Origin: Oribacterium sinus
GTDB taxonomy: Bacteria > Bacillota > Clostridia > Lachnospirales > Lachnospiraceae
DNA length: 42,547 bases
Assembly: GCF_014202695.1 (NCBI RefSeq)
Contig: NZ_JACHHH010000015.1
Location: 1 to 42,547, forward strand
Direction: 5' to 3'
Shown here: piece by piece, positions 2,424 through 33,987 of the stretch
Numbering within the stretch: position 1 is the first letter of the stretch
How the letters are laid out: every line of letters starts with the position of its first letter
Notes under the pieces: model-generated
What the model was told of the DNA's origin: nothing
Databases searched by the model: none
What the model saw: the letters and a program-made list of their open reading frames with translations, nothing else
Made by a program: the position numbers and the translations under genes

Positions 2424-2611
2424 TTTCTCTTCTCCTTAAGTGCTAAAACACAGCTGTTCATCTGCTGACTCCTAAGTTTTTCGTCCCAAGCAAAGAAAAG
2501 AATAAGAAGTATAGAAAATTCTTATGCGTTTGACTTGATATATAAATTAAATTTTATAGCGATATGCCCAATAGAACCTATCCATTCCTGTTTTTTACTC
2601 TTTAAAAAATA

Positions 2612-2667
2612 CAAAAAAGCGGTGGAAGAAAGTCTCCGGTTTTTATCCCGTTTTTCTTTCACCGCTT
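2612..2667 (-). terminator. Intrinsic terminator of the repeat-rich surface protein gene
   Basis: An 8-bp outer stem (AAGCGGTG at 2618-2625 with CACCGCTT at 2660-2667), extended by a partly paired inner region, is followed on the minus strand by a T-rich run. It lies about 50 bases after the stop codon of the minus-strand gene at 2716. Confidence 0.7.
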
Positions 2668-2715
2668 CTTTCTTATGCATTTTCTACAAACTATTTGCTA
2701 TCCACTTAGCGCTAC

Positions 2716-5371: not shown

Positions 5372-5573
5372 AAAAAAAGGACTGTAAAAATCAAAATAAA
5401 GAATTTTCGGCAATATAGGTCTGAATACGGGGTAGTCTGAGCCCGTCGGTACTTGCGAAAAACAAGTGAAACGAAGTTTTTCGCTTAGTATCCGCTACGA
5501 GGCGAAGCTAGCGAGAGCGTGCCCCAATTTCAGACCTATATTGCTTAGAAAATTTATTTTTACAGTCCTTTTC
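5372..5573. repeat. Long structured hairpin element, copy A
   Basis: About 200 bases with arms that pair over most of their length (AAAAGGACTGTAAAAAT... with ...TTTTTACAGTCCTTTT, and GCAATATAGGTCTGAA with TTCAGACCTATATTGC). The central core runs from GGGGTAGTCTGAGCCCG to GCGAAGCTAGCGAGAGCGTG and CCCC. Within the core, a further stem pairs GCGAAAAAC with GTTTTTCGC. It begins 18 bases after the stop of the GltD-like gene (minus strand), so it is part of that transcript's 3' end or a terminator. Copies B (7062-7188) and C (19313-19547) are related. Whether it acts as RNA or DNA is not known. Confidence 0.75.
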
Positions 5574-5590
5574 TGATTTTTACCCTTAAA

Positions 5591-6841
5591 CTAGGAAGCA
5601 CTTTCCGCGGCAGTTTTCGTCATCTCCTTCATATTCTTCTTTGCTTCACAGTAGGCTTCCATTTCCTCCGCTACAATCTTCGCTTGATGCACCGCTTCCA
5701 CTACGGTTTTGGCACCGGTTACCACGTCTCCGGAAGCAAAAGTTCCTTCCTTCGTCGTATGCCCCTTCTCATCCGTAAGCAGTAAGCCCAAGTTGTTGGT
5801 CTCCAAATCTGTAGTGTTGGAAACAATGTTGGCTCTGGGGTTCTGGCTGATGGCTACGATAATGCTGTCCGCCTTAAAGAAGACTTCTTCTTCCGGCTGT
5901 CCCTCTTCCTGCTTCTTCAGGATAATGCCCTCGTCCGTAATTTCCACCGGAGAGTGATGAAGCAGAAATTCTACGCCATCCTCCTCCGCCTCAGCGATTT
6001 CCTTCTTGCTGGCAGTCATATTTTCCATGCCCTTACGGTAAATGATGGTGGCTCTGGAGCCGCTTCTTTTTGCAGTTCTGGCAGCATCCATGGCCACATT
6101 TCCCGCACCGATGATAGCAACATTTTCTCCTAAATGATATGTCTCCGGAGACTTTAAGTAGTCAATGGCAAAATGCACATTTCCAAAGCTTTCTCCCTTG
6201 ATGCCCATGGTTCTCGGATTCCATACACCGGTACCGATGAAGGCTGCGGCATAACCGTCCTCAAAAAGCTTATCCAGAGAAAGCACCGGTCCGATCAGGA
6301 TGTTGGGACGAATCTTTACCCCCAGATCCAGCAAATGCTTTTCCAGGAGATCAATGATATATTTCGGAAGACGATACTCCGGAATGCCGTAACGAAGTAC
6401 ACCGCCGATTCTGTTTCGAGACTCGAAAATGGTTACCTTGTAGCCCTTTCTTTGCATCAGAAGAGCAATGGTAATTCCGGCAGGGCCACCACCGATTACC
6501 GCAATACGCTCCTTGTTCTCCGCACCCTTTTCAAAATGCAGTTCTTCCAGATATTTTAAAGAAATCTCCTCTTCCATCTTATAGAAGGGAATAGGAATCC
6601 CCTTCACTCCCCGAATACAATTTCCCTCACACTGCTTCTCATGTTCACAGACCAAAGCGCAGATGGCGGAAAGAGGGTTATTCTCGAAAAGAATTTCTCC
6701 CGCCTTCTTCAACTCTCCCTGCTTATACAACTCAATAACCTCCGGAATAGAGGTATTTACAGGACAATGCTTGGAGCATCGTGGATTCTTACATAACAAA
6801 CAACGATTGGCTTCTTCCATTAAAAATGTGTTCTGACTCAT
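5591..6841 (-). CDS. GltD-like NAD(P)H/FAD/Fe-S oxidoreductase
   Basis: The 416 residues match the glutamate synthase small-subunit (GltD/PreT/AegA-type) family. An N-terminal [4Fe-4S] cysteine region is present (CLLCKNPRCSKHCPV at about 14-28 and CALVCEHEKQCEGNC at about 61-75). An FAD Rossmann motif (VIGGGPAGITIAL, about 114) and an NAD(P)H motif (IIGAGNVAMDAARTAKRSGS, about 245) follow, with a C-terminal ASGDVVTGAKTVVEAV. It lacks the extra ferredoxin domains of E. coli AegA/YgfT. It is the last gene of the minus-strand purine-type operon, so it probably transfers electrons to or from the YgfK/SsnA system. It also resembles the middle third of YgfK. It is unlikely to be a true glutamate synthase subunit because no large subunit is nearby. 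RBS GGGAGGGAAG lies upstream. Confidence 0.85.
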   Translation of the reverse strand: MSQNTFLMEEANRCLLCKNPRCSKHCPVNTSIPEVIELYKQGELKKAGEILFENNPLSAICALVCEHEKQCEGNCIRGVKGIPIPFYKMEEEISLKYLEELHFEKGAENKERIAVIGGGPAGITIALLMQRKGYKVTIFESRNRIGGVLRYGIPEYRLPKYIIDLLEKHLLDLGVKIRPNILIGPVLSLDKLFEDGYAAAFIGTGVWNPRTMGIKGESFGNVHFAIDYLKSPETYHLGENVAIIGAGNVAMDAARTAKRSGSRATIIYRKGMENMTASKKEIAEAEEDGVEFLLHHSPVEITDEGIILKKQEEGQPEEEVFFKADSIIVAISQNPRANIVSNTTDLETNNLGLLLTDEKGHTTKEGTFASGDVVTGAKTVVEAVHQAKIVAEEMEAYCEAKKNMKEMTKTAAESAS

Positions 6842-7061
6842 CTTCCCTCCCTTAACCCTTACTCTAGCTTCTCGGTTTCATGGTTTACGCTAAACTCTCA
6901 CTTTACATACTTATCCTAAGTTCTTAGTCAAAAGGCTTAGTCCCATAATCTACTCAAAAGCCTTAGTCTAACTCTCTTTTTAGAAGAAAAATTCTACCAC
7001 AGTTTATTATCGACCATTGTTTATTTCTACATTCATAGTTCTAAAATTTTCATAATGAAAC

Positions 7062-7188
7062 AAAAAAGGAGCTGTAAAAATCAATTTAAATAAAATTTTT
7101 CGGCAATATTGGTCTAATACGGGGTAGTTTGAGTCCGCATTCAGACCTATATTGCTTAGAAAAATTTATTGATTTTTAACATCTCCCT
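7062..7188. repeat. Long structured hairpin element, copy B (core deleted)
   Basis: This is a shorter relative of copy A. The arms GCTGTAAAAATCAATTT...GCAATATTGGTCT and AGACCTATATTGC...AATTTATTGATTTTTAACA pair. The central part is reduced to CGGGGTAGTTTGAGTCCGCA, without the 80-base inner stem and the GAGGCGAAGCTAGCGAGAGCG strand. It starts 23 bases after the stop codon of carbamate kinase on the minus strand, and separates it from the GltD-like gene. Confidence 0.65.
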
Positions 7189-7211
7189 GACTTTCAGTTG
7201 AAAGCTTCTTC

Positions 7212-8150
7212 TTACTTCTTGGTAATCTTGGTTCCTGTCTTACCCTGTAATGCTTCTCTTGCCTTTTCCAAAAGGGTAATCATAGCTTCATTTCCCTTCT
7301 TAGCGGAAGCGAACTGGATAGCAGCCTGTACCTTTGGAAGCATGGATCCGGGAGCGAACTCGCCCTGGTCTGCATACTTCTGAGCCTCTTCTACGGAAAG
7401 GTCTGTTAACCACTCCTGATCCGGCTTACCGTAACGGATAGCAACCTTCTCTACAGCAGTCAAAATAATCAGCATATCTGCTTCCAAACTCTCTGCCAAA
7501 AGGGCTGCAGCGAAGTCCTTATCGATAACCGCAGCGGCTCCGGCAAGGTGCTTTCCTTCAGAAACCACGGGAATTCCGCCACCACCACAGCAGATTACCA
7601 GCTCTCCCGCATCGGACATAGCCTTAATTGCGGAAAGCTCTACAATCTCCTTTGGCTTTGGAGAAGCAACTACGCGACGATATCCACGTCCTGCATCTTC
7701 CTTAATATTCCAGCCTCTCTTCTGTGCCTCAGCCTCAGCCTCTTCCTTAGTCATAAAACGACCGATTGGCTTGGTAGGATTCTGGAAAGCAGGGTCATCC
7801 TTATCTACACGAACCTGAGTTACTACGGTTACTACTGGAGGTACCTTTCCTCCTCTGTTCAAGAATTCCTCTCTCAAGGCATTCTGGATATCATAACCGA
7901 TGTACGCCTGGCTCATGGCTACACATACGGAAAGAGGAGTCGGATCTTCCTTATGCTCGGAAGCAAACTCTCCCATAGCATTGTTGATAACACCAACCTG
8001 AGGACCGTTTCCGTGAACAACTACTACTTCATTTCCGTCTTCTACAAGATCAACGATAGCCTTTGCGGTGGTCTTTACGGCTACCATCTGCTCCGGCAAA
8101 TTATTTCCCAGGGCATTTCCCCCTAAGGCGATAACAATTTTCTTTCCCAT
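7212..8150 (-). CDS. arcC: Carbamate kinase
   Basis: Carbamate kinase converts carbamoyl phosphate plus ADP to ATP, ammonia and CO2 (312 residues, cytoplasmic, normal family length). Diagnostic segments are the N-terminal KKIVIALGGNALG, VVVVHGNGPQVGVINN, the YRRVVASPKPKEIVE region, VICCGGGGIPVV with DKDFAAALLAE, and the C-terminal FAPGSMLPKVQAAIQFA. It follows the YgeW carbamoyltransferase gene on the same strand with a gap of about 200 bases holding two palindromes. The position matches YqeA/ArcC-like kinases of ygeW-type islands, so it is probably the energy-conserving step of this pathway rather than part of an arginine deiminase operon. No arcA is present. GGAG lies 8 bases before the ATG. 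Confidence 0.95.
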   Translation of the reverse strand: MGKKIVIALGGNALGNNLPEQMVAVKTTAKAIVDLVEDGNEVVVVHGNGPQVGVINNAMGEFASEHKEDPTPLSVCVAMSQAYIGYDIQNALREEFLNRGGKVPPVVTVVTQVRVDKDDPAFQNPTKPIGRFMTKEEAEAEAQKRGWNIKEDAGRGYRRVVASPKPKEIVELSAIKAMSDAGELVICCGGGGIPVVSEGKHLAGAAAVIDKDFAAALLAESLEADMLIILTAVEKVAIRYGKPDQEWLTDLSVEEAQKYADQGEFAPGSMLPKVQAAIQFASAKKGNEAMITLLEKAREALQGKTGTKITKK

Positions 8151-8223
8151 ATTTTTTCTCCAATAAAAATTTTTACTCCTGAAACAGGAAAAATAGGCTT
8201 TTCAAATTCTTTTTAAGGGAAGA

Positions 8224-8252
8224 ATAGCGCCCCGAATAAATCGGGACGCTAT
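8224..8252. terminator. Hairpin after the ygeW-like gene
   Basis: A 12-bp stem with one mismatch (ATAGCGCCCCGA with TCGGGACGCTAT) and a 5-base loop. It lies about 95 bases after the ygeW stop in the minus-strand direction. The following T run is weak, so it may be a partial terminator or an mRNA stabiliser between ygeW and arcC. Confidence 0.5.
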
Positions 8253-8280
8253 ATCATTCTCCCTCTAAGCGTTTATTCTT

Positions 8281-8316
8281 AACGAGTATCGCACGCGTAG
8301 TGTGCGATATCTCGTT
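8281..8316. repeat. 36-bp near-perfect palindrome
   Basis: AACGAGTATCGCAC and GTGTGCGATATCTCGTT are inverted repeats around a short GCGTA centre, just past the ygeW stop codon. It has no downstream T tract and could be a stem-loop for RNA processing or a protein-binding dyad. Confidence 0.55.
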
Positions 8317-8347
8317 TTGCTTCAAAGGTTCTATCTGTCTGCATAAA

Positions 8348-9553
8348 TTATGCTTCGAAGATTCTATCCTGTCCGCGCTTCTGTAACTCCTCTAATACCT
8401 TTGCAGGATCCTTGAACTTCTCAAGAAGGATCATAGCTGCGATAACGTATGGCTTGTAAGAAGCCTCCTTGTAAAGTGGGTCTCTGTAACGATCGAATAC
8501 AGTTGCGTCAACCTCACCTTCCTTGCAGGATACGCCGGTGATATCAGCAGGTAAGCAGTGCATGTAAAGAGCCTTTCCGTCCTTGGTCAGCTTCATCATC
8601 TCTTCTGTACAAGCCCAATCCTTGTGCTGAGCGTTCTGTGCAAGAAGCTCCTTCTCAAGAGCCTTGATGCCCTCTGTGTCGCCCTCACCGTAAAGATTGG
8701 TTCTCTTCTCCATAGCTGCGAATGGAGCCCAAGACTTTGGATATACGATGTCAGCATCCTTGAATGCTTCCTTCATATCATTAGTAACCTTGAAAGATCC
8801 GCCGGACTCCTTAGCATTCTTCTCTGCTACGTCTACAACGTCCTTCATTACATCATATCCTTCCGGATGAGCAAGAACTACTTCCATACCAAGTCTTGTG
8901 AAAAGACCGATTACACCCTGAGGTACGGAAAGTGGCTTTCCGTAAGAAGGAGAGTATGCCCAAGTCATAGCCAGCTTCTTACCCTTTAAGTTCTCGATTC
9001 CGCCCATCTCGTGGATTACGTGTAAAGCGTCAGCCATACACTGTGTCGGGTGGTCGATATCACACTGTAAGTTAACCAGAGTAGGTCTCTGCTCTAAAAC
9101 GCCGTCCTTGTGTCCTGCCTCAACAGAGTCAGCAACCTCGTGCATGTAAGCATTTCCCTTACCGATGTACATATCATCACGGATACCGATAATGTCAGCC
9201 ATGAAAGAGATCATGTTAGCGGTCTCACGAACGGTCTCACCGTGAGCAACCTGAGACTTTCCTTCATCCAGATCCTGAACCTCTAATCCAAGAAGGTTAC
9301 AAGCGGAAGCGAAGGAGAAACGAGTTCTTGTGGAATTATCACGGAATAAAGAAATTCCTAAACCGGAATCAAAAACCTTTGTAGAGATGTTTCTCTCTCT
9401 TAAGTTTCTGAGTGCATCTGCAACATCCCATACTGCCTTTAACTCATCATCAGACTTTTCCCATGTAAGGAAGAAATCGTTTAAGTACATCTTGTCAGTC
9501 TTAAGTCCCTTAATTTCCTTTACTAACTCTTCAAACTGCTGCTTCTTATCCAT
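8348..9553 (-). CDS. ygeW: YgeW-type (knotted) carbamoyltransferase homologue
   Basis: This is a cytoplasmic transcarbamoylase of the aspartate/ornithine carbamoyltransferase superfamily, YgeW subfamily. The true substrate of that subfamily has been debated; it probably releases carbamoyl phosphate for the adjacent carbamate kinase. Seen: the carbamoyl-phosphate loop FRDNSTRTRFSFA (about residue 72), QVAHGETVRETANMISFMAD, the VNLQCDIDHPTQCMADALH region, and the HCLPADITG motif near residue 335. The start is placed at MDKKQQFEEL (401 residues). There AAGGAG lies 6 bases upstream of the ATG, whereas a longer upstream reading lacks an RBS. It sits between ygeY and arcC as in known ygeW-X-Y islands. 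Confidence 0.93.
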   Translation of the reverse strand: MDKKQQFEELVKEIKGLKTDKMYLNDFFLTWEKSDDELKAVWDVADALRNLRERNISTKVFDSGLGISLFRDNSTRTRFSFASACNLLGLEVQDLDEGKSQVAHGETVRETANMISFMADIIGIRDDMYIGKGNAYMHEVADSVEAGHKDGVLEQRPTLVNLQCDIDHPTQCMADALHVIHEMGGIENLKGKKLAMTWAYSPSYGKPLSVPQGVIGLFTRLGMEVVLAHPEGYDVMKDVVDVAEKNAKESGGSFKVTNDMKEAFKDADIVYPKSWAPFAAMEKRTNLYGEGDTEGIKALEKELLAQNAQHKDWACTEEMMKLTKDGKALYMHCLPADITGVSCKEGEVDATVFDRYRDPLYKEASYKPYVIAAMILLEKFKDPAKVLEELQKRGQDRIFEA

Positions 9554-9679
9554 TTTAATCTCCTTTAAAAATGTGTTTATCCGATAAAGCCCCATGGCTT
9601 AATCTTTATTCTTATTTTGCACCTCTACTCCGGACTTGCCGAAAAGTATAGTACTGATTTGCACTTTAGACTCTAAAAC

Positions 9680-11008
9680 TTAGTCACAGTAGTACTGCGG
9701 AAGAGCTGCGTAGAATGCTGCACAGGTTACCAAGTCCTTCTTCCATGTGATCTCGTTAGGTGCGTGAGCCTGAGCCTCAGCTCCGGGTCCGAATCCGATT
9801 ACAGGGATACCGTTTCTTCCCATGATGGAAACACCGTTTGTGGAGAAGGTCCACTTGTCAAGAAGAGGTCTTGGCTCTCTCTCTGCCACTGTATCCACTT
9901 CACCGATTCTCTTCTCACCGTAAAGATCCTTGTAAGCAGCAACGGAAGCCTTACATAACTTGTGATCCTCAGGAAGTACCCATGTTGGGAAGTAGCACTC
10001 GATTGGGTATACACATCCTGTGAAGGAAGGACGATCATAGTTGTACATAGAAACTACAACATCCTCACCGTACTTCTTTACTGCAGGAAGCTGTCTGATT
10101 TCCTCAAGACAAGACTCCCAAGTCTCTCCGGCAGTCATTCTTCTGTCCAAAGATACAGCACAGCTGTCAGCTACTGCACAACGAGAAGGAGATGTGAAGA
10201 AGATCTCGGAAGCGGTAACAGTTCCTCTTCCTAAGAAACGAGCCTCTTTCCACTGCTCATTGTACTTCGGATTTAACATCTTAACCAATCCGCGGATAGA
10301 AGTAGACTCTGCATCTCCGTTGTTGTTTAATGCACGAACATCGGAAAGAATGTCAGCCATCTTGTAGATTGCATTGTCTCCTCTTTCAGGAGCGGAACCG
10401 TGGCAGGAAACACCCTTCACGTCAATGCGGATCTCCATACGTCCTCTCTGTCCTCTGTATAATCCACCGTCAGTAGGCTCGGAAGATACAACGAACTCAG
10501 GACGAATCTTATCTTCGTTGATGATGTACTGCCAGCAAAGACCGTCACAGTCCTCTTCCTGTACAGTTCCTACTACCATTACGCGGTACTTATCGTTCAG
10601 AAGTCCCATGTCCTTCATGATCTTTGCAGCATATACAGCAGAAACGGTTCCGCCGAGCTGATCGGAAACACCTCTTCCACCGATCTTGGTGTCATCCTCG
10701 TATCCGTCGTATGGATCAAATGTCCAGTTTGATCTGTTTCCGATTCCTACGGTATCGATGTGTCCGTCGAAGCAGATCAGGGTCTTTCCGGATCCCATGA
10801 ATCCCATTACGTTACCCTGTGGGTCAACCTTAACCTCGTCAAAGCCAACCTTCTCCATCTCATTCTTGATAGTCTCAACGTGCTTTGCTTCGTCAGCGGA
10901 CTCTCCCGGATTCTTTACGATTGCTCTCAAGAAAGCACTCATGTCAGCCTTATAGCCTTCTGCTCTCTTCTTAATCTCTTCCAAAACTTCCTTATTTAAC
11001 TGTCCCAT
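9680..11008 (-). CDS. ygeY: YgeY-family M20 metallohydrolase (selenium/purine-linked)
   Basis: This 442-residue M20-type zinc peptidase/deacetylase homologue probably hydrolyses an amide or carbamoyl intermediate. Metal-site motifs are visible: [12 protein letters not shown] (His-x-Asp), [29 protein letters not shown] (catalytic Glu pair), [17 protein letters not shown], and a C-terminal histidine in [10 protein letters not shown]. The dimerisation-domain segment [20 protein letters not shown] is present. This is the family annotated YgeY, seen mainly in ygeW/ygeX/ygfK islands. RBS AAGGAGGATATT precedes the ATG. The gene lies 126 bases from ygeW and 80 from the ammonia-lyase gene, consistent with one operon. 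Confidence 0.93.
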
Positions 11009-11088
11009 ACTAATATCCTCCTTAGTTATATATAAGCCTGTTATCCAGGGTGTTGCACAATTTGTTTCTTTGAAAATAAAGTTCTATC

Positions 11089-12282
11089 TTACTTCTCTTT
11101 TGCTTCCCAGATGATGTTCTTCCAACGCTCAGGGTCTGTATCTCCCTCGGTGTTGAAGCAAAGCACCTTACTGTTCTCGTTAAGCTGTAACTTCTCTCTT
11201 AAATCCTTGAAGTCATCCTGTAACATGATGGCAGCCAATGCACCGAAGCCTGCTGCACCGGACTCTCCGGAAAATACCTGATCGTCTCCCTTTAACGGAG
11301 CGTTCAACATTCTCATTCCTCTTGCAGCAACGATATCCTCAGCAGAGATAAATGCCTTTGCATGATTCTTTAAGATATCCCAAGAAGTAATGTTTGGCTC
11401 TCCACAAGCAAGTCCTGCCATAATGGTAATCATGTCGCCGTCTACAATGCGGATGTTTCCGTCATTTGCCACAGCGCCCTTGTAAAGGCAATCTGCAACG
11501 GAAGCCTCAACCACAACCATAATAGGAGGATTCTCCTTATAACGGTTAGCGAAGTATCCTACAACTGCACCTGCCAAAGAACCTACGCCGGCCTGTACGA
11601 ATACGTGGGTAGGTCTTTCTCCCAGCTGGTCGGCAGCCTCATCCGCCATGGTTCCATAACCTTCCATAATCCATGCAGGAATCTTCTCATAGCCTTCCCA
11701 AGCGGTATCCTGTACTACGATTCCGTGCTCTTCCTTCTCGGCAAGAGCTGCAGCCTGTCTTACACACTCGTCATAGTTTACATCGGAAATCCATGCCTTG
11801 GCATTCTCAGCCTTGATGTGGTTCAAACGGGTCTCTGTAGAGCCCTTCGGCATGATGATTACACAGTTCTGTCTTAACTTATTAGCCGCCCAGGCTACTC
11901 CTCTTCCGTGGTTTCCGTCGGTAGCGGAGAAGAATGTTGCTGTTCCAAACTCTTCCTTTAACTTCTCGGAGGTTAAAACATTGTAGGGAAGCTCGGAAAT
12001 ATCCTTTCCGGTTTCCTCGGCAATGTAACGAGCGATAGCGTAGGAACCGCCTAATACCTTGAAGGCATTTAAGCCGAAACGGTAAGACTCATCCTTTACG
12101 TACACATTGCCCAGGCCAAGATATTTTGCCATATTGGGAAGCTTGCAAAGTGGGGTCTCAGAGTACTGAGGGAAGCTCTCGTGGAAGGTTCTTGCCTTCT
12201 TTACTTCTTCCATAGACATAAGAGGAAGATTCTTATCCTCTGTCTTTGGCATTTCATTAATTTTCCATTTTAAATCCTGCAT
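11089..12282 (-). CDS. dpaL: Diaminopropionate ammonia-lyase
   Basis: This is a PLP enzyme that converts 2,3-diaminopropionate to pyruvate and two ammonia molecules (YgeX/DpaL, fold type II; 397 residues, close to the family length). The Schiff-base lysine is predicted at about residue 75 in RFGLNAFKVLGGS. Other features are ATDGNHGRGVAWAA, the asparagine-containing loop, VFVQAGVGSLAGAVVGY and SGESGAAGFGAL. RBS GGAGGAATAGCC lies directly before ATG. It is the second gene of the minus-strand operon, 32 bases after the regulator's stop. In anaerobic uric-acid-degrading islands this enzyme supplies pyruvate from a purine-derived diaminopropionate; applying that here is an inference from synteny. 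Confidence 0.95.
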   Translation of the reverse strand: MQDLKWKINEMPKTEDKNLPLMSMEEVKKARTFHESFPQYSETPLCKLPNMAKYLGLGNVYVKDESYRFGLNAFKVLGGSYAIARYIAEETGKDISELPYNVLTSEKLKEEFGTATFFSATDGNHGRGVAWAANKLRQNCVIIMPKGSTETRLNHIKAENAKAWISDVNYDECVRQAAALAEKEEHGIVVQDTAWEGYEKIPAWIMEGYGTMADEAADQLGERPTHVFVQAGVGSLAGAVVGYFANRYKENPPIMVVVEASVADCLYKGAVANDGNIRIVDGDMITIMAGLACGEPNITSWDILKNHAKAFISAEDIVAARGMRMLNAPLKGDDQVFSGESGAAGFGALAAIMLQDDFKDLREKLQLNENSKVLCFNTEGDTDPERWKNIIWEAKEK

Positions 12283-12314
12283 GGCTATTCCTCCTTTTTT
12301 TCGCCACTATACTG

Positions 12315-12962
12315 TTACTTTTTGCTTTGGTCAATATAGCTGTATAAAGTAAATTTACTGATGCCGTAGAAATTGGAAACCTTGTCTCCTGACTTGGTAA
12401 TCAGGAAGGCTCCCGCATCCCGTAAGAACTGGATGGCTTGGATTTTTTCTTCCTTATTCATCAGAGCCGGCGGCTTTCCAATCCGCTTCACACTTTGATT
12501 AATCAGGTTGTCCAAAAGGTCATTCACGTTCAAAGGAATCTGTCCGTCCCCGTTACTGTCATGGCTCTCCACCGTGGTAATGGACTGCAATGCCGCATCC
12601 ACATTCATCAGTGCGGTTACATCATAGTTGATGCCCAGAACCCAGCGGTATTTTCCGGTGCTGTCCTTCAGGAAAACTGTAGAGGACTTTAGGATTCTGC
12701 CGTCCTGGGTAGTGGTGCGATAGCCCAGATGATCCACAATGATGTCTCCCTTTTCTATCGCTTCCAGGGTTTCCAGTACCACCTTTGAGGCGCCGTCTCC
12801 TATCTTTCTTCCGCTCACATGTCCGTTGATGATGAAAATGATGGTATGTTCCAAATCCTTTACGGAAAGATCATGGATACAAACCTCGCAATCCTTTCCG
12901 AACTGTCTGGCAATACCGTGAGCCGTACTCACCAGCATTTCCAAGCTGCTATCCTCTGTCAT
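12315..12962 (-). CDS. YheO/DauR-type PAS-HTH transcriptional regulator
   Basis: This is a 215-residue cytoplasmic regulator. The N-terminal two thirds match the YheO-like PAS domain (CEVCIHDL, FIINGHVSGRKIGD, SSTVFLKDSTGKYRWVLGIN). The C-terminal helix-turn-helix covers about 165-213 (KEEKIQAIQFLRDAGAFLI, GISKFTLYSYID). It is the first gene of the minus-strand operon and is transcribed divergently from ssnA-ygfK, so it probably controls both arms through the 305-base shared promoter region. The likely effector is a purine- or amino-acid-derived metabolite sensed by the PAS domain, not known. RBS AAAGGAGGGAAA sits just before the ATG. Confidence 0.9.
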   Translation of the reverse strand: MTEDSSLEMLVSTAHGIARQFGKDCEVCIHDLSVKDLEHTIIFIINGHVSGRKIGDGASKVVLETLEAIEKGDIIVDHLGYRTTTQDGRILKSSTVFLKDSTGKYRWVLGINYDVTALMNVDAALQSITTVESHDSNGDGQIPLNVNDLLDNLINQSVKRIGKPPALMNKEEKIQAIQFLRDAGAFLITKSGDKVSNFYGISKFTLYSYIDQSKK

Positions 12963-13267
12963 TTTCCCTCCTTTCTACCGGAATTTATGCTTTCAAAATC
13001 TATCGAAATGCACTACCTAAAAATTTTTTATGTACCCCCTATCTTAGCACGGTTTTTTTACTTTGCAATGGTTTTTTCAAAAAATTTTTTAGCTTCCAAA
13101 AATTTTTTTATGTTCTCCATTGCATTTACTTTCAGGGAATGATAAAATCCTATCAAATCTGTTTTTCCCTAGAATTTTCAAGGCTTTACAGCGATTTTTT
13201 TAGGAAAAACTGTATACAATTTTCGCACTGAGCCAAGGGCTCTTAGAAAGAAAAGGAGGATTGAGCT
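12963..13267. promoter_or_regulatory. Divergent control region between the regulator operon and ssnA
   Basis: This is an AT-rich intergenic region. It holds three A5-6/T6-7 tracts (13019-13029, 13079-13090, 13098-13109), and an inverted repeat TGCAATGG (13064-13071) / CCATTGCA (13117-13124) encloses two of them. Near 13210 there is CTGTATACAATTTT, close to a TGTATACA-type dyad and usable as a -10 region. A strong RBS (AAAGGAGG) precedes ssnA. Exact promoters cannot be fixed by eye. Confidence 0.5.
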
Positions 13268-14599
13268 ATGTTTTTAATCGGAAATGGACGTCTTTTCACC
13301 AGAGACGAAAAGAACAGCTTTTTCGAGAATGGCGCAGTAGTTTGGGAAGACAACACTATTGTAGAAGTAGGAGATTTTGAGACATTAAAGAAAAAATACG
13401 CAGACGCGGAATTTATTGATGCAAAGGGTGGTGTGATTCACCCGGCTTTTATCAATACCCATGAGCACATCTACTCTGCTTTGGCAAGAGGCTTATCCAT
13501 CAAGGGTTATGCTCCTAACGGATTCTTAGAGATTCTGGACGGACTTTGGTGGACTATTGACCGGAATCTGGACAACGACTTAACCAAACTTTCCGCAGAA
13601 GCTACCTATTTAGAGTGTATCAAGAACGGAGTAACTACCATCTTCGATCACCACGCTTCCTTCGGAGAGATTTCCGGATCCCTTTTCGCCATCGAAGAGG
13701 CTGCCAGAGACTTCGGCGTGCGTTCCGTTCTTTGCTATGAGATTTCCGATCGTGACGGTAAGGAAAAGGCACATGCCGCTATTAAGGAAAATGTTGACTT
13801 CGCAAAGCATGCTCTTTCCCTGAAGGACGACTTCATTAAGGGAATGATGGGTATGCATGCAAGCTTTACCATCTCCGATGAGACCATGGAGCTTTGCCGT
13901 AAGGAGAAGCCGAAGGAGATCGGATACCACATCCACGTGGCGGAGGATATCCTGGACCTTCACCGTTGCTTAAAGGAGCACGGCAAGAGAATCGTAGACA
14001 GACTCTATGACTGGGATGTATTGGGGGAGAAGACTCTCCTTGCCCACTGCATCTATGTAAATCCTCACGAGATGGATTTGATTCGCGATACCAATACCAT
14101 GGTAGTACACAACCCGGAGTCCAACATGGGTAATGCCTGCGGATGTCCTCCTACCATGGAGATTGTACATAAAGGAATTCTTACAGGATTAGGTACAGAC
14201 GGATACACCCATGATATGATAGAATCTTGGAAGGTGGCTAATATTCTCCATAAGCATCATTTGGTAGACCCGGGTGCCGCTTGGGCAGAGGTTCCTGAAA
14301 TGCTTTTCCAGGGCAATGCTCGTATCGCTAACCGTTATTTTGAAAAGAAGCTGGGCGTATTAGAGAAGGGTGCGGCTGCGGATATCATCATCACCGACTA
14401 TATCCCGCCAACACCGATGAATGCCGGCAACTTAAACGGCCACATGCTCTTCGGTATGAACGGTCGTTCCGTAGTTACCACCGTAGGAAACGGTAAGGTT
14501 CTGATGAAGAACAGAGAGCTTCAGGGAATCGACGAAGAGAGATGCCTTGCCAAGATTCGCGAGGGTGCAGCTCGTTTAGAGAAGAAAATTAACGGTTAA
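13268..14599 (+). CDS. ssnA: SsnA-type aminohydrolase
   Basis: This amidohydrolase-superfamily enzyme (443 residues) is related to guanine deaminases and chlorohydrolases. Metal ligands are visible: HPAFINTHEHIYS (His-x-His, about residue 65), GYHIHVAEDILDLHR (about 220), LLAHCIYVN (about 258) and LGTDGYTHDM (about 316). SsnA homologues are named for an E. coli gene next to ygfK and occur in purine/uric-acid islands. The exact substrate is uncertain, though a purine-derived ring is plausible. The start ATG has AAAGGAGG 8 bases upstream. It forms an operon with ygfK, separated by about 200 bases containing hairpins. Confidence 0.93.
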   Translation: MFLIGNGRLFTRDEKNSFFENGAVVWEDNTIVEVGDFETLKKKYADAEFIDAKGGVIHPAFINTHEHIYSALARGLSIKGYAPNGFLEILDGLWWTIDRNLDNDLTKLSAEATYLECIKNGVTTIFDHHASFGEISGSLFAIEEAARDFGVRSVLCYEISDRDGKEKAHAAIKENVDFAKHALSLKDDFIKGMMGMHASFTISDETMELCRKEKPKEIGYHIHVAEDILDLHRCLKEHGKRIVDRLYDWDVLGEKTLLAHCIYVNPHEMDLIRDTNTMVVHNPESNMGNACGCPPTMEIVHKGILTGLGTDGYTHDMIESWKVANILHKHHLVDPGAAWAEVPEMLFQGNARIANRYFEKKLGVLEKGAAADIIITDYIPPTPMNAGNLNGHMLFGMNGRSVVTTVGNGKVLMKNRELQGIDEERCLAKIREGAARLEKKING

Positions 14600-14632
14600 A
14601 ACGGAATTTCACAAAAAGCAAAGTATTTCTAT

Positions 14633-14666
14633 AGAAGAAAAGGGTAGCTGAGAACCCTTTTCTTCT
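14633..14666 (+). terminator. Perfect 13-bp hairpin after ssnA
   Basis: AGAAGAAAAGGGT (14633-14645) pairs fully with ACCCTTTTCTTCT (14654-14666) around an 8-base loop, 34 bases after the ssnA stop. It is not followed by a T run. It may reduce read-through to ygfK or protect the ssnA mRNA end. Confidence 0.55.
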
Positions 14667-14707
14667 GGAAACTTTGTTCGCAACATTAATGGGCCATTCT
14701 TGGTCAG

Positions 14708-14802
14708 GCAAGAATACCCCATCAGGGAAAAGCCCTCCTGTCTATCAGGAGAAGACGCAGGATCTTAAGCAGGAGGGCAAAATTCCCGAAAAGGAGATTT
14801 CC
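14708..14802 (+). promoter_or_regulatory. ygfK leader with mutually exclusive hairpins
   Basis: The segment CTCCTG at 14735-14740 can pair with CAGGAG at 14746-14751 (5-base loop). Extended to GCCCTCCTG (14732-14740), it can instead pair with CAGGAGGGC at 14770-14778, which also holds an AGGAGG. An upstream CAGGG offers a third partner. The ygfK RBS AAGGAG follows at 14791-14796. The alternative pairing suggests an attenuator-like leader; the ligand or factor is unknown. Confidence 0.4.
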
Positions 14803-17796
14803 ATGAGTGATATTATGACCCCGATTCCCTTTGACAGATTGATGAACCGTATTTTGGTAGAGCATCAACAGGGAGCTGTTTTTGGTATGCAGAAATGCTA
14901 CCAGGCAAAAAACCTTCAGCCAAACACTCTTTTTGGCAGAAAATTAGAAGGACAGATTGGACCTGCTGCAGGACCTAACACCCAGCTTGCCCAGAACATC
15001 GTTGCTTCTTACTACGGCGGCGCTCGTTTCTTCGAGTTAAAGACCGTACAGAAGATGGACGGTAGAGAGCTGGCAGCTTGTGTAGCAAAGCCCTGTATCA
15101 CAGCAGAGGACGAGTGTTACAACTGTGAGTGGTCCACAGAGTTGGAAGTACCACAGGCTTTTGCAGAGTATGTAAAGGGCTGGTTCGCTTGTAAGGTTAT
15201 GGCGAAGGAGTATGATTTAGGCGATCCGGATGCTTTCCAGTTCAACATTTCCGTAGGATATGACCTGGAAGGAATCAAGCTTCCTAAGGTAGACCGTTTC
15301 ATCAACGAGATGAAGGACGCTAAGGATACCGAAATCTTTAAGGAGTGTAAGGCATGGCTTTTGGCTAACCTTGACCGTTTCCAGAAGGTGACCAAGGAAG
15401 ATGTAGAGGCTATTCAGTCCGAAATCATCAACAGCGTTACCGTTTCCACCCTTCACGGCTGTCCTCCTTCCGAGATTGAGGCGATTGCTTCTTACCTGAT
15501 TCAGGAAAAGCATTTGCACACCTTCGTAAAGTGTAACCCTACTCTCTTAGGATATGAAACCGCTCGTGCAATCTTAGACGAGATGGGCTACGACTACATC
15601 GCTTTCACAGACTTCCACTTCAAGGATGACTTACAGTACAGCGATGCAGTACCTATGTTAAAGCGTTTGCAGGAATTGGCAAAGAGCTTGAACTTAGCCT
15701 TCGGTGTAAAGATTACCAACACCTTCCCTGTAGATGTGAAGAACAACGAGCTTCCTTCTCAGGAAATGTACATGTCCGGAAAGTCCCTCTTCGCTCTTTC
15801 CATGTCTGTAGCAAAGATGCTGACCAGAGACTTTAACGGAAGCCTTCGTATCTCCTTCTCCGGCGGTGCGGATTACTTCAACATTGAGCGTATCGTGGAG
15901 GCCGGCATTTGGCCTGTAACCATGGCAACCACCCTCTTAAAGACCGGTGGATACCTTCGTTTCATCCAGATGGCTGAGCTTTTAGAGAAGAACCTTGCAA
16001 AGCCTTGGGAAAAGGTTGAGCTTTCCTTAGTGGAGAAGATGATTGCAGACGCTAAGAGCGATAAGCACTTAGTAAAGCCTGTTAAGCCCCTTCCCAACAG
16101 AAAGTCCGATAAGAAGGTTCCTTTGGTTGATTGCTACACCATGCCCTGTCGTGACCGTTGCCCAATCCACCAGGATATCACCAGCTACGGCCGCCTGGTA
16201 AATGAAGGCAAGTTCCAGGAAGCTTTAGAGGTTATCTTAGATAAGAACCCGCTTCCCTTCATGACCGGAAATATCTGTACTCATACCTGTCAGTCTGCTT
16301 GTACCAGAAATCACTATGAGACAGACGTACAGATTCGTACCAACAAGTTAATCGCTGCAAGAGGCGGATATGATGCCGTTCTTCCCGGATTAAAGCAGGA
16401 AGGTTCTGTGCAGAAGAAGGTTGGTGTTATCGGAGCAGGTCCTGCAGGTATCTCTGCCGCTTTCTTCTTGGCAAGAGCAGGCGTAGAAGTTCATGTTTAC
16501 GATAAGGACGCTGTAGCCGGCGGTGTAGTAGCCAACGTTATCCCCGGATTCCGTATCCCTGCTGAAGAAATTCAGAAGGACGTAAATCTTGCGAAGCAGT
16601 ACGGCGCTCAGTTCCACCTTGGACAGGAAGTTAGCGATATTGACGCTTTCCGTAAGGAAAATAACTTTGATGCGGTAATCGTTGCTATCGGTGCCCACAA
16701 GGAAGCTCCACTTGTTCTGGAAAAGGGAGAGGCTTACAACGCCCTTCACTTCCTGGCTGACTTCAAGACACAGGGCGGCAAGGTAAACTTAGGAAAGAAC
16801 GTTGTTGTAGTAGGTGCAGGAAACACCGCTATGGACGTTGCAAGAGCTGCGAAGAGAAATGCAGGAGTAGAAAATGTTTATCTGGTTTACAGAAGAACAA
16901 AGCGCTACATGCCTGCGGATCAGGAAGAATTGGAAGAGGCTATCGAAGAGGGCGTAAACTTCCAGGAGCTCCTTGCTCCATTTACCCACGAGAACGGTAA
17001 GTTACTTTGCCACCGCATGGTACTCTCCGATGTGGATGCTTCCGGAAGACGTTCCGTTAAGGAAAGCGACGAAGTGGTTGAGATTCCTTGTGATACCGTA
17101 ATCGCTTCCATCGGTGAGAAGGTAGACGGTTCTTTCTATGAGAAGAACGGTATTGCTGTTACCGACAAGGGACTTCCTGTATTAAAGAAGGAAAGCAATG
17201 AGACTTCCGTAGCCGGCGTTTATGCTGCAGGAGACGGTGCTTTCGGCGCTTCCGTAATCGTAAAGGCTATTGCCGATGCGAAACTTGCTTGCGAAGCAAT
17301 CTTAAACAAGACCATCGGTACAGATCGTCCATCCTTAACCACAGACGAGAAGATCTATGCTAAGAAGGGTAATCTAGTAGAGCCGGAGAAGGGATTAAAT
17401 CCTGACAAGCGTTGTCTTGCCTGCGACCACATCTGTGAGAACTGCTGCGATGTATGTCCTAACCGTGCAAACTTCGCCATCAAGGTTCCCGGCGTAGAGA
17501 TGCACCAGATTATCCACGTGGATTATATGTGTAACGAGTGCGGTAACTGTGAGACCTTCTGCCCATACAATTCCGCTCCTTACAAGGAGAAGTTCACTCT
17601 CTTCCACAGAGCCGAGGAAATGGAAGACTCCACCAACGACGGATTTGCATTCGTTGACAATGATGGAAATGCCATTGTTCGCGTAGGCGGCGAGAAGATG
17701 AACTACAAGGTAGGCGATAAGAATACAAAGCTCTTCTATCGTCTGGCTGAACTGGTAGATACCGTTTACAACGATTATTCCTACCTTCTGATTTAA
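14803..17796 (+). CDS. ygfK: YgfK, putative selenate-reductase-type / purine-linked Fe-S flavoprotein
   Basis: This is a large soluble redox protein (997 residues from this start; E. coli YgfK is about 1030). The N-terminal half is a dihydroorotate dehydrogenase/GltB-like barrel (for example VSTLHGCPPSEIEAIA and ISFSGGADYFNIERI). The middle is a GltD-like module with a cysteine region (CYTMPCRDRCPIHQD, GNICTHTCQSACTRN), FAD motif VGVIGAGPAGISAAF and NAD(P)H motif VVVGAGNTAMDVARAAKRN. The C-terminus carries ferredoxin-type cysteines (CLACDHICENCCDVCP, CNECGNCETFCP). The start MSDIMTPIPFDRL is chosen because AAGGAG lies 6 bases upstream; an earlier TTG at 14674 lacks an RBS and its extension looks non-native. 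Its family is linked to selenate reduction and anaerobic uric acid breakdown; the true reaction remains uncertain. Confidence 0.94.
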   Translation: MSDIMTPIPFDRLMNRILVEHQQGAVFGMQKCYQAKNLQPNTLFGRKLEGQIGPAAGPNTQLAQNIVASYYGGARFFELKTVQKMDGRELAACVAKPCITAEDECYNCEWSTELEVPQAFAEYVKGWFACKVMAKEYDLGDPDAFQFNISVGYDLEGIKLPKVDRFINEMKDAKDTEIFKECKAWLLANLDRFQKVTKEDVEAIQSEIINSVTVSTLHGCPPSEIEAIASYLIQEKHLHTFVKCNPTLLGYETARAILDEMGYDYIAFTDFHFKDDLQYSDAVPMLKRLQELAKSLNLAFGVKITNTFPVDVKNNELPSQEMYMSGKSLFALSMSVAKMLTRDFNGSLRISFSGGADYFNIERIVEAGIWPVTMATTLLKTGGYLRFIQMAELLEKNLAKPWEKVELSLVEKMIADAKSDKHLVKPVKPLPNRKSDKKVPLVDCYTMPCRDRCPIHQDITSYGRLVNEGKFQEALEVILDKNPLPFMTGNICTHTCQSACTRNHYETDVQIRTNKLIAARGGYDAVLPGLKQEGSVQKKVGVIGAGPAGISAAFFLARAGVEVHVYDKDAVAGGVVANVIPGFRIPAEEIQKDVNLAKQYGAQFHLGQEVSDIDAFRKENNFDAVIVAIGAHKEAPLVLEKGEAYNALHFLADFKTQGGKVNLGKNVVVVGAGNTAMDVARAAKRNAGVENVYLVYRRTKRYMPADQEELEEAIEEGVNFQELLAPFTHENGKLLCHRMVLSDVDASGRRSVKESDEVVEIPCDTVIASIGEKVDGSFYEKNGIAVTDKGLPVLKKESNETSVAGVYAAGDGAFGASVIVKAIADAKLACEAILNKTIGTDRPSLTTDEKIYAKKGNLVEPEKGLNPDKRCLACDHICENCCDVCPNRANFAIKVPGVEMHQIIHVDYMCNECGNCETFCPYNSAPYKEKFTLFHRAEEMEDSTNDGFAFVDNDGNAIVRVGGEKMNYKVGDKNTKLFYRLAELVDTVYNDYSYLLI

Positions 17797-17808
17797 CATT
17801 TAATAATA

Positions 17809-17854
17809 AAAAAAGGACTGCAGAAAAAGTTATGTTTTCTGCAGTCTTTTTTAT
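17809..17854 (+). terminator. Intrinsic terminator of ssnA-ygfK
   Basis: A perfect 12-bp stem (GACTGCAGAAAA at 17816-17827 with TTTTCTGCAGTC at 17835-17846) and 7-base loop, followed by TTTTTT, start about 12 bases after the ygfK stop. Confidence 0.9.
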
Positions 17855-18082
17855 TTCTTTCTCTTCTTTATTTTGTAACCAAATCTTCCCTTTTCTGTCT
17901 TTCCTAATGTGCTATCATTTTAAGGTGTTGCAAATCCTTAATTATCCTAATGTTTTTAAGAATTTACAATAACCCGGGAACAAGTTGAGTGACAAAGCTA
18001 AGCTTCTAAAGCCTTCCATCGTTCTAAGCTTTCAGAAATAGAAGGAGTGATAGGAGCTTATAAATCTATAAGGAGTGTTATG

Positions 18083-19306
18083 ATGAAAATGTTGAATCGA
18101 AATAAGACGAATCAAGCGCCTTCTTTTATGAAAGGAGCTCTTCTCTCTTTCCTCTTTCTTTGCTTTTTTGCCCTTCTCCCTTTATTCGGAGTAAGAAAAA
18201 GCTTTGCGGAGGAGCATCATTTGAAGTCCTACTATAGTTTGTACGGAGCGGATACCGGCTTCCAAAGCTACAGTAACGATAGCCAAAGGCAGATGAAAGC
18301 AGGAAATTATCCCACCGCAGTAAAGATTCTTTTAAAGCATCAGCCGGAGGGAAGTACCGGTACCATTCAGTATCAGGTCAACATTTCCGGTAGCGGCTGG
18401 AGTAAAACCTATGAGAATGGACAGGTCGCCGGAGAAGGGCAGAGCATGCCTTTAGAGGGAATCCGCGTTTTCCTAAACGGCAATTTAAAAGATCAGTATG
18501 ATGTGTACTATAAAACCTCGGTACTGGGCACCTGGCAGGATTGGGCGAAAAACGGAGAAGACAGCGGAAAAATCGGTGTAGGAATGCACATTGACGGCAT
18601 TTTAGTCACTGTGGTAGCAAAGGGGGAAAGCCCCAGAGAGGAACAGCCGGAGCAGAGCCATAAGGTCTCCAAGAGCAATGTGGACGCTTCCAAGCCCATG
18701 GTTGCCCTGACCTTTGATGACGGTCCCGGAAAATATGAAGACCGTATTCTGGCAGCCTTCCAAAAGTATGGCGGAAAAGGAACCTTCTTCTTCGTAGGAA
18801 CTCAGGCAGAAAAATATCCTTCCGTAGTGAAGCGTGTGGCAGAGGCAGGACATGAAGTTGGTAACCACAGCTATAAGCATGAGAATCTTCCAAAGCTTTC
18901 TCAGGCAGGAGCAAGCCAGTCTCTGGCAAAGACCAACGAAATTTTAAGAAAACTTTCCGGTCAATCCGTTTCTCTGGTTCGCCCTCCCTACGGAGCTACC
19001 TCCGCCAGCGTTAAGGCCGCTTTACAAAGCCAGGGACAGCCTTCCATTCTTTGGAGCATTGATACCCTGGATTGGAAAACCAGAAACTCCAAAAGTACCA
19101 TTAACACGGTATTACAGCACGTAAAGGACGGAGATGTCATCCTGATGCATTCTATCTATTCCCAAAGTGCCGATGCGGCAGAGGTACTGATTCCCGCCTT
19201 ACAGGAAAGAGGCTTCCAGCTGGTAACCGTATCCGAGCTGGCGAAGGCAAAGGGCGTAGACCTGCAGGCAGGACACAACTACGGCTCCTTCCATAAGAAA
19301 GGTTAA
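18083..19306 (+). CDS. Secreted ChW-repeat polysaccharide deacetylase
   Basis: This is an exported carbohydrate esterase family 4 (NodB-type) deacetylase that probably removes acetyl groups from peptidoglycan or another polysaccharide. Seen: a hydrophobic signal/anchor at about residues 17-42. Two ChW-like repeats follow at about 70-190 (NISGSGWSKTYENGQVAGEG, TWQDWAKNGEDSGKIG). The NodB domain spans about 205-395 with LTFDDGPG, metal ligands in GNHSYKHEN, RPPYGATSA and VILMHSIYSQ. The start at 18083 leaves AGGAG 7 bases upstream and gives 407 residues; a second ATG at 18080 is also possible. It is a single gene, flanked by the ygfK terminator and repeat copy C. Family certain; substrate inferred. 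Confidence 0.93.
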   Translation: MKMLNRNKTNQAPSFMKGALLSFLFLCFFALLPLFGVRKSFAEEHHLKSYYSLYGADTGFQSYSNDSQRQMKAGNYPTAVKILLKHQPEGSTGTIQYQVNISGSGWSKTYENGQVAGEGQSMPLEGIRVFLNGNLKDQYDVYYKTSVLGTWQDWAKNGEDSGKIGVGMHIDGILVTVVAKGESPREEQPEQSHKVSKSNVDASKPMVALTFDDGPGKYEDRILAAFQKYGGKGTFFFVGTQAEKYPSVVKRVAEAGHEVGNHSYKHENLPKLSQAGASQSLAKTNEILRKLSGQSVSLVRPPYGATSASVKAALQSQGQPSILWSIDTLDWKTRNSKSTINTVLQHVKDGDVILMHSIYSQSADAAEVLIPALQERGFQLVTVSELAKAKGVDLQAGHNYGSFHKKG

Positions 19307-19312
19307 TGTTCA

Positions 19313-19547
19313 AAGAAAAAAGGAAATAATAAAAGAGCTGAATCAGTAAAGACATCAGAAGGCTTTTCAGAAAAATAACTTCGGAATAAGGGGCAATCTG
19401 AGCCCGCGGGTTCTTGGCTTTTGTTTTATAAAAGCTTAGAACCCCTGCGAGGCGAGGTTAGCGGGAGCGTGCCCCTGTTTCGAAGTTATTTTGTATTGAA
19501 AAGCTAAAATAATAGTCTTTATTCAGCTCTTTTTATTTCCTTTTTTC
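19313..19547. repeat. Long structured hairpin element, copy C
   Basis: It lies between two convergent genes. The outer arms pair (AAAAAAGGAAATAATAAAAG and GAGCTGAAT with ATTCAGCTC and TTTATTTCCTTTTTT; AATAACTTCG with CGAAGTTATT). The core GGGGCAATCTGAGCCCG ... GCGAGGCGAGGTTAGCGG ... GCGTGCCCC matches copy A. The inner stem GGGTTCT-GCTTTT / AAAAGC-AGAACCC differs in sequence from copy A but still pairs. It could terminate transcription from both sides. Confidence 0.75.
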
Positions 19548-19555: not shown

Positions 19556-20341
19556 TTACCTTCCCATAAGAAGGTTCTTCCGTACTGCCTCCAGGAAGTC
19601 CCTGCAGGACTCGCTGCAGCTGTCCTTGTCTACGGGAATCAGCGCATTGCCACCGATATCCAAAAGATACAACGTCTCCATATCTATGATGTTTTTCAGC
19701 TCTTCATAGTACACAATCATGCTGCTGCGTTCCGTCTTCATCAAAAAGTAGTTTTTATAGAAGGCGATGCTTACCGGTAAATTCAGCTTTTTATTGGAAG
19801 ACCGATACAGATTCTGAAGTTGTCCCTTATAAAGATAAAACAGCAAAAATGGAACAAGAACCATAAGAATTACCATGCAAATGGCAAAAAAGCTATTTCC
19901 CATCCAATACTGAGTAAATGCCAAAAGGCCTAGAGCAAACCAAAAGATAAAAACCAATCCCCAGATTTTCTTCTTATAATAGGACATCATGAAACGAATA
20001 AACTTCTCTTCACCGGGCAAATATCCTGCGGTATATTCCGGAATCTTATCTCCTGCGCGGCGATAACGATGAAGCTCTTCCGTAGTCCATCTTCCGTTTT
20101 TCAGGCCATCTACGTCCTGCTCTGAAGAAGTATTCTTCTGTCCTGCCTCGGTGATTCCTTCCTTGTTCTGTCCTCTTCTATCTTCAGAAAATTCTTCTTG
20201 ATTTTTAGCCCTAAGCTTCTCGGATTCTTCTTCGATAAGATGGTACTGCTCCTCCTTGGATCTTCTGGCATTCCATCTGGCTAAGTCTTCGGAAAGCCCC
20301 ACCAGCTCTTCTTCCATGTCTTTATTTTCTTCTGCTGCCAT
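19556..20341 (-). CDS. YcxB-like two-TM membrane protein
   Basis: This is a 261-residue protein of unknown function. The N-terminal 120 residues are acidic and charged, probably cytoplasmic. Two adjacent TM helices (about residues 128-170; LVFIFWFALGLLAFTQYWMG and FFAICMVILMVLVPFLLFYL) are followed by a C-terminal YcxB-like domain (IAFYKNYFLMKTERSSMIVY, LKNIIDMETLYLLDI, NALIPVDKD). The start MAAEENKDME is selected because AAAGGAA precedes it. It overlaps the end of the flavin reductase gene by 20 bases, implying translational coupling. A longer in-frame extension would lie wholly inside the upstream gene. Family assignment is by motif pattern. Confidence 0.75.
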   Translation of the reverse strand: MAAEENKDMEEELVGLSEDLARWNARRSKEEQYHLIEEESEKLRAKNQEEFSEDRRGQNKEGITEAGQKNTSSEQDVDGLKNGRWTTEELHRYRRAGDKIPEYTAGYLPGEEKFIRFMMSYYKKKIWGLVFIFWFALGLLAFTQYWMGNSFFAICMVILMVLVPFLLFYLYKGQLQNLYRSSNKKLNLPVSIAFYKNYFLMKTERSSMIVYYEELKNIIDMETLYLLDIGGNALIPVDKDSCSESCRDFLEAVRKNLLMGR

Positions 20342-24374: not shown

Positions 24375-24500
24375 ACAAAACTTTACCGACTTTGTAAAAG
24401 AATCTCATTCTGATAAAGCGCAAAAAATCAAAAGAATAAAGCACAAAAAAAGCAGAAGAACAAAACACAAAGAAATCGGAAGAAACAGAAGAAAAAAGAG

Positions 24501-24571
24501 GCTTGCAAAAAATCAAAACTGTCTCCTATACAGCATGAAGACTATGGATATCTTGATTTTTTGTAGGCCCT
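24501..24571 (+). terminator. Terminator between convergent DUF819 and ATPase genes
   Basis: CAAAAAATCAA (24506-24516) pairs with TTGATTTTTTG (24553-24563), flanked by GGC/GCC pairing, and is followed by TTTTT. The loop is long (about 36 bases). The 24375-24500 stretch before it is very A/G-rich and holds no supported gene. Confidence 0.6.
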
Positions 24572-24575
24572 TTTT

Positions 24576-33915: not shown

Positions 33916-33916
33916 A

Positions 33917-33986: not shown

Positions 33987-33987
33987 T

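Follow-up and report, generated by a model that had tools for sequence, protein, structure and literature searches.

The stretch of DNA analyzed here, 42,547 nucleotides (nt) from Oribacterium sinus (RefSeq assembly GCF_014202695.1, contig NZ_JACHHH010000015.1; called the window below), carries three intergenic hairpin sequences on the plus strand, copy A (5372-5573), copy B (7062-7188), and copy C (19313-19547), which belong to a real multi-copy hairpin family with a conserved core. The original prediction had described these three sequences, and the observation was confirmed at these positions. The left-core motif common to all of them, GGGGYARTYTGAGYCCG, occurs with zero mismatches at 5429, 7121, and 19390, and at up to 3 mismatches the window contains 4 matches, compared with 0.80 expected. 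The cores of A and C both start with GGGG(Y)A(R)TCTGAGCCCG and end with GCGA(R)G(Y)TAGCG(R)GAGCGTGCCCC. By position, all three copies lie at a gene 3' end, as had been predicted, but the adjoining open reading frames (ORFs) of A and B, 5591-6841 and 7212-8150, run on the minus strand, and the core strands of A and B are therefore antisense to the adjoining gene; only C is in sense.

Three hairpins and their folded core

In copy A, self-complementary arms flank the core, as seen from inverted repeats and the predicted fold. The left arm (5375-5428), with the terminator-like outer end AAAAGGACTGTAAAAATC and the inner part GGCAATATAGGTCTGAAT, is complementary to the right arm (5526-5572), which terminates in ACAGTCCTTTT (inverted repeats I3 and I15, and folding). 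The 97-nt core at 5429-5525 comprises a closing helix P1, a helix P2 with a bulge and a tandem G-A motif, a P3 hairpin, and the side hairpin P4 (5511-5518), which has a GNRA tetraloop (GC-GAGA-GC). Copy C has a core of 86 nt (19390-19475) with a P3 of subtype 3, TTGGCTTTTGT, and its P4 (19461-19468, GC-GGGA-GC) is again a GNRA tetraloop hairpin. With our core covariance model, the cores of A and C score 106.4 and 92.7 bits, respectively, both sequences being among the 39 on which the model was trained. The arms of C are unlike those of A, and the claim that the outer arms of both copies are mutually unrelated yet each self-complementary was borne out by the inverted repeats (I3 and I15 in A, I14 in C) and the predicted folds. 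The inner stems that had been compared between A and C do pair in both copies, but they are not the same helix: the counterpart of GGGTTCT/AGAACCC of C is CGGTACT/AGTATCCG in A, and GCGAAAAAC/GTTTTTCGC of A is the next helix up. Copy C is also flanked by a near direct repeat, CCATAAGAAAGGTT (19291-19304) and CCATAAGAAGGTT (19564-19576), of which 8 nt were scored; such a flanking repeat is not general among the copies of the family.

Copy B is not equivalent to the other two, which are full copies. Its arms are present, but of the core it has only the left half (7121-7137), and the core model does not match it at E <= 0.01, the only matches in the window being at 5429 and 19390. It reads as a deletion derivative of the full element. 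Seven further hairpins with an arm of the type called arm a (CAATATAGGTCT) have only a short loop with core fragments, five of them in the genome of the window (G000) and two in its congener G009. As core fragments are retained, we regard these arms-only hairpins as deletions, and copy B fits such a class. Simple core-less hairpins that are similar to the outer arm ends of A (AAAAAAAGGACTGCAGAAA.. and AAAAGAGGCTTGCAAAAAATC..) were also seen at 17808-17850 and 24493-24575.

The core structure with its helices P1 to P4 was written by hand and has 24 pairs. In a first alignment, made up of 39 cores of the four genomes G000, G009, G024, and G027, 96.6% of the cells were paired, both sides had changed at 13 of the 24 pairs, and there were 86 double-change cells compared with 21.4 in shuffled alignments; sliding the partner by 1-3 columns lowered pairing to 32-47%. 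The 72 distinct core rows from other genera had 96.1% paired cells and two-sided changes at 20 of the 24 pairs, with 341 double-change cells versus 90.9 after shuffling, the alignment in this case having been fitted to the model. The two degenerate positions, R and Y, pair with each other (37 A-T, 34 G-C, and 1 A-C among the 72 of 94 copies readable at both), and 108 of 111 distinct cores have a GNRA loop in P4, with both N and R varying. The tandem G-A motif in P2 is found in the copies of G000 and G009. The core is thus conserved as a folded strand. When the two columns with habitual G-U pairs are set aside, the ratio of G-U to A-C mismatches in the core is 6:11 in A2 and 12:12 in A3, and covariation alone is therefore no proof of RNA in the core; evidence specific to one strand comes from the GNRA loop, the tandem G-A, the bulge, and the two wobble columns.

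Fifteen copies, 12 in G009 (loci L026-L041 and L077) and 3 in G000 (L042, L043, L060), have a long-form core, in which about 100-110 additional nt separate P3 from the second P2 strand. The extra domain consists of more hairpins, whose stems differ from copy to copy. Six loci (L001, L045, L046, L051, L057, L061) have two right halves, one beyond the other, an arrangement that looks like one copy nested within the P3 of another.

Distribution and genomic sites

A search of the genome and its relatives for further copies had been suggested, and such copies are numerous. In G000 (2.73 Mb in 25 contigs, the window being contig 15), the left half of the core was found at 81+83 places on the two strands at <= 2 mismatches (reversed control, 0+0), and the right half at 88+81 places (reversed control, 0+1); A, B, and C therefore account for only a few of the roughly 165 copies of the family. 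At <= 1 mismatch, the right half was found 140 times (71+69) in G000, 42 times (17+25) in G009, and 0-3 times in the others of 17 genomes of the genus. The core model of about 97 nt matched 144 of the 397 genomes searched in the same family, presumably Lachnospiraceae to judge from contig titles, at E <= 0.01, where the numbers per genome are lower bounds, as at most 10 candidates were scored for each. In a sample of the phylum, 5 of 398 genomes matched at E <= 0.001, four from the same family and one, G814 with 8 core-model matches, from another class. The spread is patchy: G321 has 8 core-model matches and its 22 congeners have none. Among the matches listed in a pattern scan, the contigs were mostly titled Lachnospiraceae, with a few bins titled from other groups; carriers among them include Eisenbergiella tayi DSM 26961, Pseudobutyrivibrio xylanivorans MZ8, and bins of Butyrivibrio, Roseburia, and Blautia. 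An exact-pattern scan of IMG/VR with one narrow pattern gave 0 matches.

Orthologous sites with and without the element were found in two places (gene names assigned by eye). At the fmt-zmp junction, G321 has an element with both arms, and the 11 readable junctions of congeners have a short gap in which the element is absent. At the nrdD-nrdG junction, there is a copy in G009, and G000 has neither element nor hairpin. At other orthologous sites of G000 and G009, the subtypes or orientations of the copies differ. Pre-existing hairpins were considered as insertion targets, and none was present at the empty fmt-zmp and nrdD-nrdG sites.

At L126 of G309 (1400-3860), there are three tandem units with element copies in alternating orientation. 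Two of the units are about 900 bp long with a similar ORF, and one unit contains a second element, most of which is missing through a deletion between short GGCAC repeats.

The gene context of the copies was classed with a simple ORF caller. Among 91 copies of G000 and G009, 43 lie between convergent genes, 25 between co-directional genes in antisense, 19 between co-directional genes in sense, and 4 between divergent genes, compared with 104 gaps lacking the element, of which 7 were convergent, 70 co-directional, and 27 divergent. The 67 copies of other genera are distributed as 15 convergent, 26 co-directional antisense, 18 co-directional sense, and 8 divergent; the 32 element-free gaps compared with them as 3, 23 co-directional in either sense, and 6. 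Between co-directional genes, there was no sense bias in the pooled data (37 sense versus 51 antisense, two-sided p 0.165), which argues against a cis-acting RNA of the 3' untranslated region (3'-UTR). No protein partner was evident beside the copies, the neighbors looking unrelated by eye and without a family search at 28 loci, 26 of which had genes on both sides.

Copies with arm a have the common ends GGGGCTGTAAAAAATC..GATTTTTTACAGCCCC, flanked by A and T runs. A strict terminator test, which rests on sequence, was passed on either strand by 28 of 80 copies in G000 and G009, with a cross-copy control of 0.04, and on both strands by 10 of the 80. In other genera, 5 of 57 copies passed on either strand. 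The suggested role as a bidirectional terminator may thus hold for a minority of the copies only.

Self-pairing arms and their changes

The arms of each copy pair with each other and, in general, not with those of other copies. In G000 and G009 (n=92), the mean complementarity of a copy's own arms was 22.6, compared with 12.3 between copies and 8.6 for shuffled arms; in other genera (n=76), the corresponding values were 20.3, 7.5, and 7.9. The arms do not track the cores, however. Two copies of G009 have identical 97-nt cores and arms that are 45-50% alike, which is the chance level, and L134 and L136 of G321 have a core identity of 0.99 and distal arms with an identity of 0.46. Random-like distal arms were found in 32 of 58 same-genome pairs with core identities >= 0.88, namely in 8/8 pairs of G321, 8/8 of G396, 2/2 of G219, 2/2 of G340, 4/9 of G024, 1/3 of G309, and 7/26 of G369. 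Arm types also recombine with P3 types, arm a being combined with P3-1 in 35 copies, with P3-2 in 4, and with P3-3 in 4.

How the arms change could be followed with five orthologous copies in four locus pairs from sister species that are 78-91% alike. Out of 164 arm pairs, 126 were the same, 26 had changed on both sides, 7 on one side, and 5 were unaligned. Nearly all two-sided changes (24 of 26) were Watson-Crick pairs in both species, and 15 of these 24 clean double changes were transversions, for which no passage through a G-U pair is possible, although substitution counts within replaced arm blocks hinge on the alignment. By orthologous pair, the two-sided and one-sided changes were 11/1, 1/0, 3/0, 11/4, and 0/2, the fifth pair thus having no joint change. 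Whole blocks differ in some cases: L290 and L301 have 83 of 85 core positions alike and long blocks that differ in both arms, and L194 and L287 have kept the inner arms and have wholly different outer arms. At a second L194/L287 site, there is a palindromic extension at the tip of P3 (L194:2572-2704 versus L287:3940-4022). It seems that one arm is copied from the other as DNA.

The self-pairing arms had been taken as the signature of selection on RNA folding. This was not upheld, as identical cores carry unrelated arms, the changes between orthologues are mostly two-sided and in the clean cases mostly transversions, and the G-U and A-C mismatches of the arms were similar in number (151:115 and 134:128, in total 285 versus 243).

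A probable mobile palindrome and its relation to known elements

We consider it reasonably probable that A, B, and C represent a mobile palindromic element, dispersed and non-autonomous, of about 150-220 bp, which forms one long imperfect palindrome and has many copies, a patchy spread, absence at orthologous sites, a folding core, copy-specific arms that pair with themselves, and joint changes of both arms. Of the four options that had been offered, a non-autonomous mobile unit is the best, and the original interpretation is partly supported overall. The folded core, as a single strand of RNA or DNA, would be recognized by a mobility or binding factor, and the arms would be kept palindromic at the DNA level as one is copied from the other within the hairpin; because of such copying, the arms could drift fast and still pair. 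The cores would stay alike through functional constraint together with recombination between copies. The location at gene ends would then result from the harm of insertions elsewhere and from some arms doubling as terminators, and no gene-specific role would be involved.

More tentatively, we propose that the palindrome rewrites itself. The core would fold the strand back, and turn-around DNA synthesis would recopy an arm from the other arm or from flanking DNA, replacing blocks of both arms in place and sparing the core. The tip of P3 may gain further palindromic stems through such synthesis, which may likewise make the arms wherever the element newly inserts.

Several observations weigh against a mobile palindrome of this kind. 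Transposition itself was not seen, the empty and filled sites compared being those of congeners. No target-site duplication was found (>= 5 nt in 3 of 137 copies versus a 2.9% rate with mismatched flanks from different copies), there are no terminal repeats common to all copies, and no transposase was noticed adjoining any copy. The carriers also had no mobilizer in common, with only the Y1 transposase and RVT_1 looked for: the Y1 transposase (PF01797) was absent in 7 of 12 carrier genomes, and RVT_1 (PF00078), which could have indicated a retroelement, in 4 of 12 (G024, G369, G309, G430). Strong arms are not universal either, as they exceeded the best shuffled score in 85 of 92 copies of G000 and G009 and in 52 of 76 copies of other genera, leaving 7 and 24 copies, respectively, at or below it. 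In G369, and for some copies of G024, the arms are related (distal identity up to 0.98), and arms are therefore also inherited. Finally, the arms have a slight G-U excess (pooled one-sided p 0.037), which leaves room for some strand-specific selection.

The constancy of the fold with its variable sequence would also be expected if the fold were selected as single-stranded DNA, a structure-specific recombination substrate comparable to the attC sites of integrons. GNRA-type loops are stable in DNA, too, and the nearly strand-symmetric arm mismatches and the lack of a sense bias agree with this alternative, which we regard as possible but on balance unlikely, as no recombinase common to the carriers was found, Y1_Tnp and RVT_1 being those looked for. 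The hairpin family may act as a small RNA. A cis-acting structured 3'-UTR RNA that protects or processes the message like a REP-type stabilizer, with arms selected as RNA stems, would agree with the preference for convergent genes in G000 and G009, with the conserved fold and GNRA loop, and with the slight G-U excess of the arms. We nevertheless hold it to be improbable, as the core is found in both orientations without a sense bias, 44 of the 67 copies in other genera lie between co-directional genes, some at operon-like junctions, and transversions dominate the double changes of the arms.

The strict terminator test, the common ends of the arm-a copies with their A and T runs, and the bias to convergent sites would be explained if the copies were bidirectional intrinsic terminators that spread together with a conserved tip. 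However, few copies passed on both strands or in other genera, and the conserved tandem G-A, bulges, and GNRA side hairpin would be superfluous for termination, so that we give this explanation little credence. Unrelated arms on identical cores, the nesting of copies in the P3 of others at several loci, and the terminator-like ends could alternatively mean that the mobile unit is the core of about 97 nt alone, which inserts into hairpin loops of terminators or other copies, so that the stem of the target would serve as the arms. This is very doubtful, since the element-free orthologous sites (11 fmt-zmp junctions and nrdD-nrdG in G000) have no hairpin, the arm-a copies are alike out to the ends of their arms, and orthologous copies change their arms while staying in place.

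If the palindrome does rewrite itself, the covariation described here would be largely a product of DNA copying, and methods that infer RNA selection from covariation would be misled by it. The family would be evidence from nature that both arms of a perfect palindrome can be rewritten simultaneously in bacteria, with a bearing on palindrome stability and on the reach of covariation as a proof of RNA structure. In any case, the family is large, its hosts are gut bacteria of an abundant group, it is unlisted in the RNA and repeat resources compared, and the core model can be used to annotate it elsewhere.

The window has several other features. A group II intron on the minus strand (33916-35738) has Rfam matches to D1D4-3, D1D4-1, and domain V, and its 464-residue ORF (33988-35382) matches RVT_1; a near-perfect 22-bp palindrome (35828-35871) lies just beyond it. 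Tandem 45-nt repeats at 3709-4434 are located within a minus-strand ORF of 796 residues (2716-5106), with 18 registered copies of a 222-nt reference. The sequences 26768-26988 and 29336-29556 form a 221-nt inverted repeat with 74% complementarity, which probably represents related genes in opposite orientation.

The core had not been recognized as a named RNA family in the original prediction, and at the gathering threshold, Rfam 15 had no match on any element in the window and 18 further loci. Permissive scans of copy A, one long-form copy, and L139 gave sub-threshold matches only, the best being SSRC8_2 in one scan (17.3 of 72 bits, E 0.0081), c-di-GMP-I-UAU in a second (21.6 of 65.9 bits, E 0.013), and a match with E 0.21 in the third. 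None of the titles listed in searches of open PMC text describes such a family, and the small mobile DNA elements proposed here would be a hitherto undescribed one. According to the parts of the report at hand, the candidate structured RNAs from the human microbiome comprise 3161 models, 250 of them palindromic (PMC8040213). A similar object could be among the 3161; those parts describe none like it.

A G+C stem followed by a T run, as in intrinsic terminators, is predicted for 28/80 copies in G000 and G009 and for 5/57 elsewhere by the sequence test. The element differs from retroelements in that four of the 12 carriers lack the PF00078 reverse transcriptase. It is short, palindromic, dispersed, and non-coding like miniature inverted-repeat transposable elements (MITEs), but differs from them by the missing target-site duplication and by the lack of terminal inverted repeats conserved between copies, as shown by the cross-copy arm values of other genera, which are no higher than those of shuffled arms; the arm-a subfamily is an exception. 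The elements bcr1-bcr3 of the Bacillus cereus group are, in the sections of the source consulted, intergenic, present in many copies, foldable, and MITE-like, with about half of them transcribed (PMC3446304). As far as those sections go, our element is likewise intergenic, multi-copy, and foldable, but it has no target duplication, its arms are not common to the copies, and neither an Rfam match nor a sequence link to bcr was seen.

REP, BIME, and REPIN sequences are, in the portions of two studies that were available, palindromes dispersed in many copies outside genes, which lie mainly 3' of coding sequences where neighboring genes are co-directional or convergent and often occur as pairs in opposite orientation; REPs have 20-40 bp, GTAG or CGTC tags, and links to RAYTs (PMC3733652, PMC3116915). 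The tags are not retained in the present family, as GGGGTAG of copy A is GGGGCAA in copy C, and a link to RAYTs is not evident with the Y1 transposase PF01797 missing from 7 of the 12 carriers searched. In genomic context and copy number, the element is like REP and BIME sequences, and its unit of about 150-220 bp, its branched core of about 97 nt, and its copy-specific arms distinguish it from REPs and REPINs.

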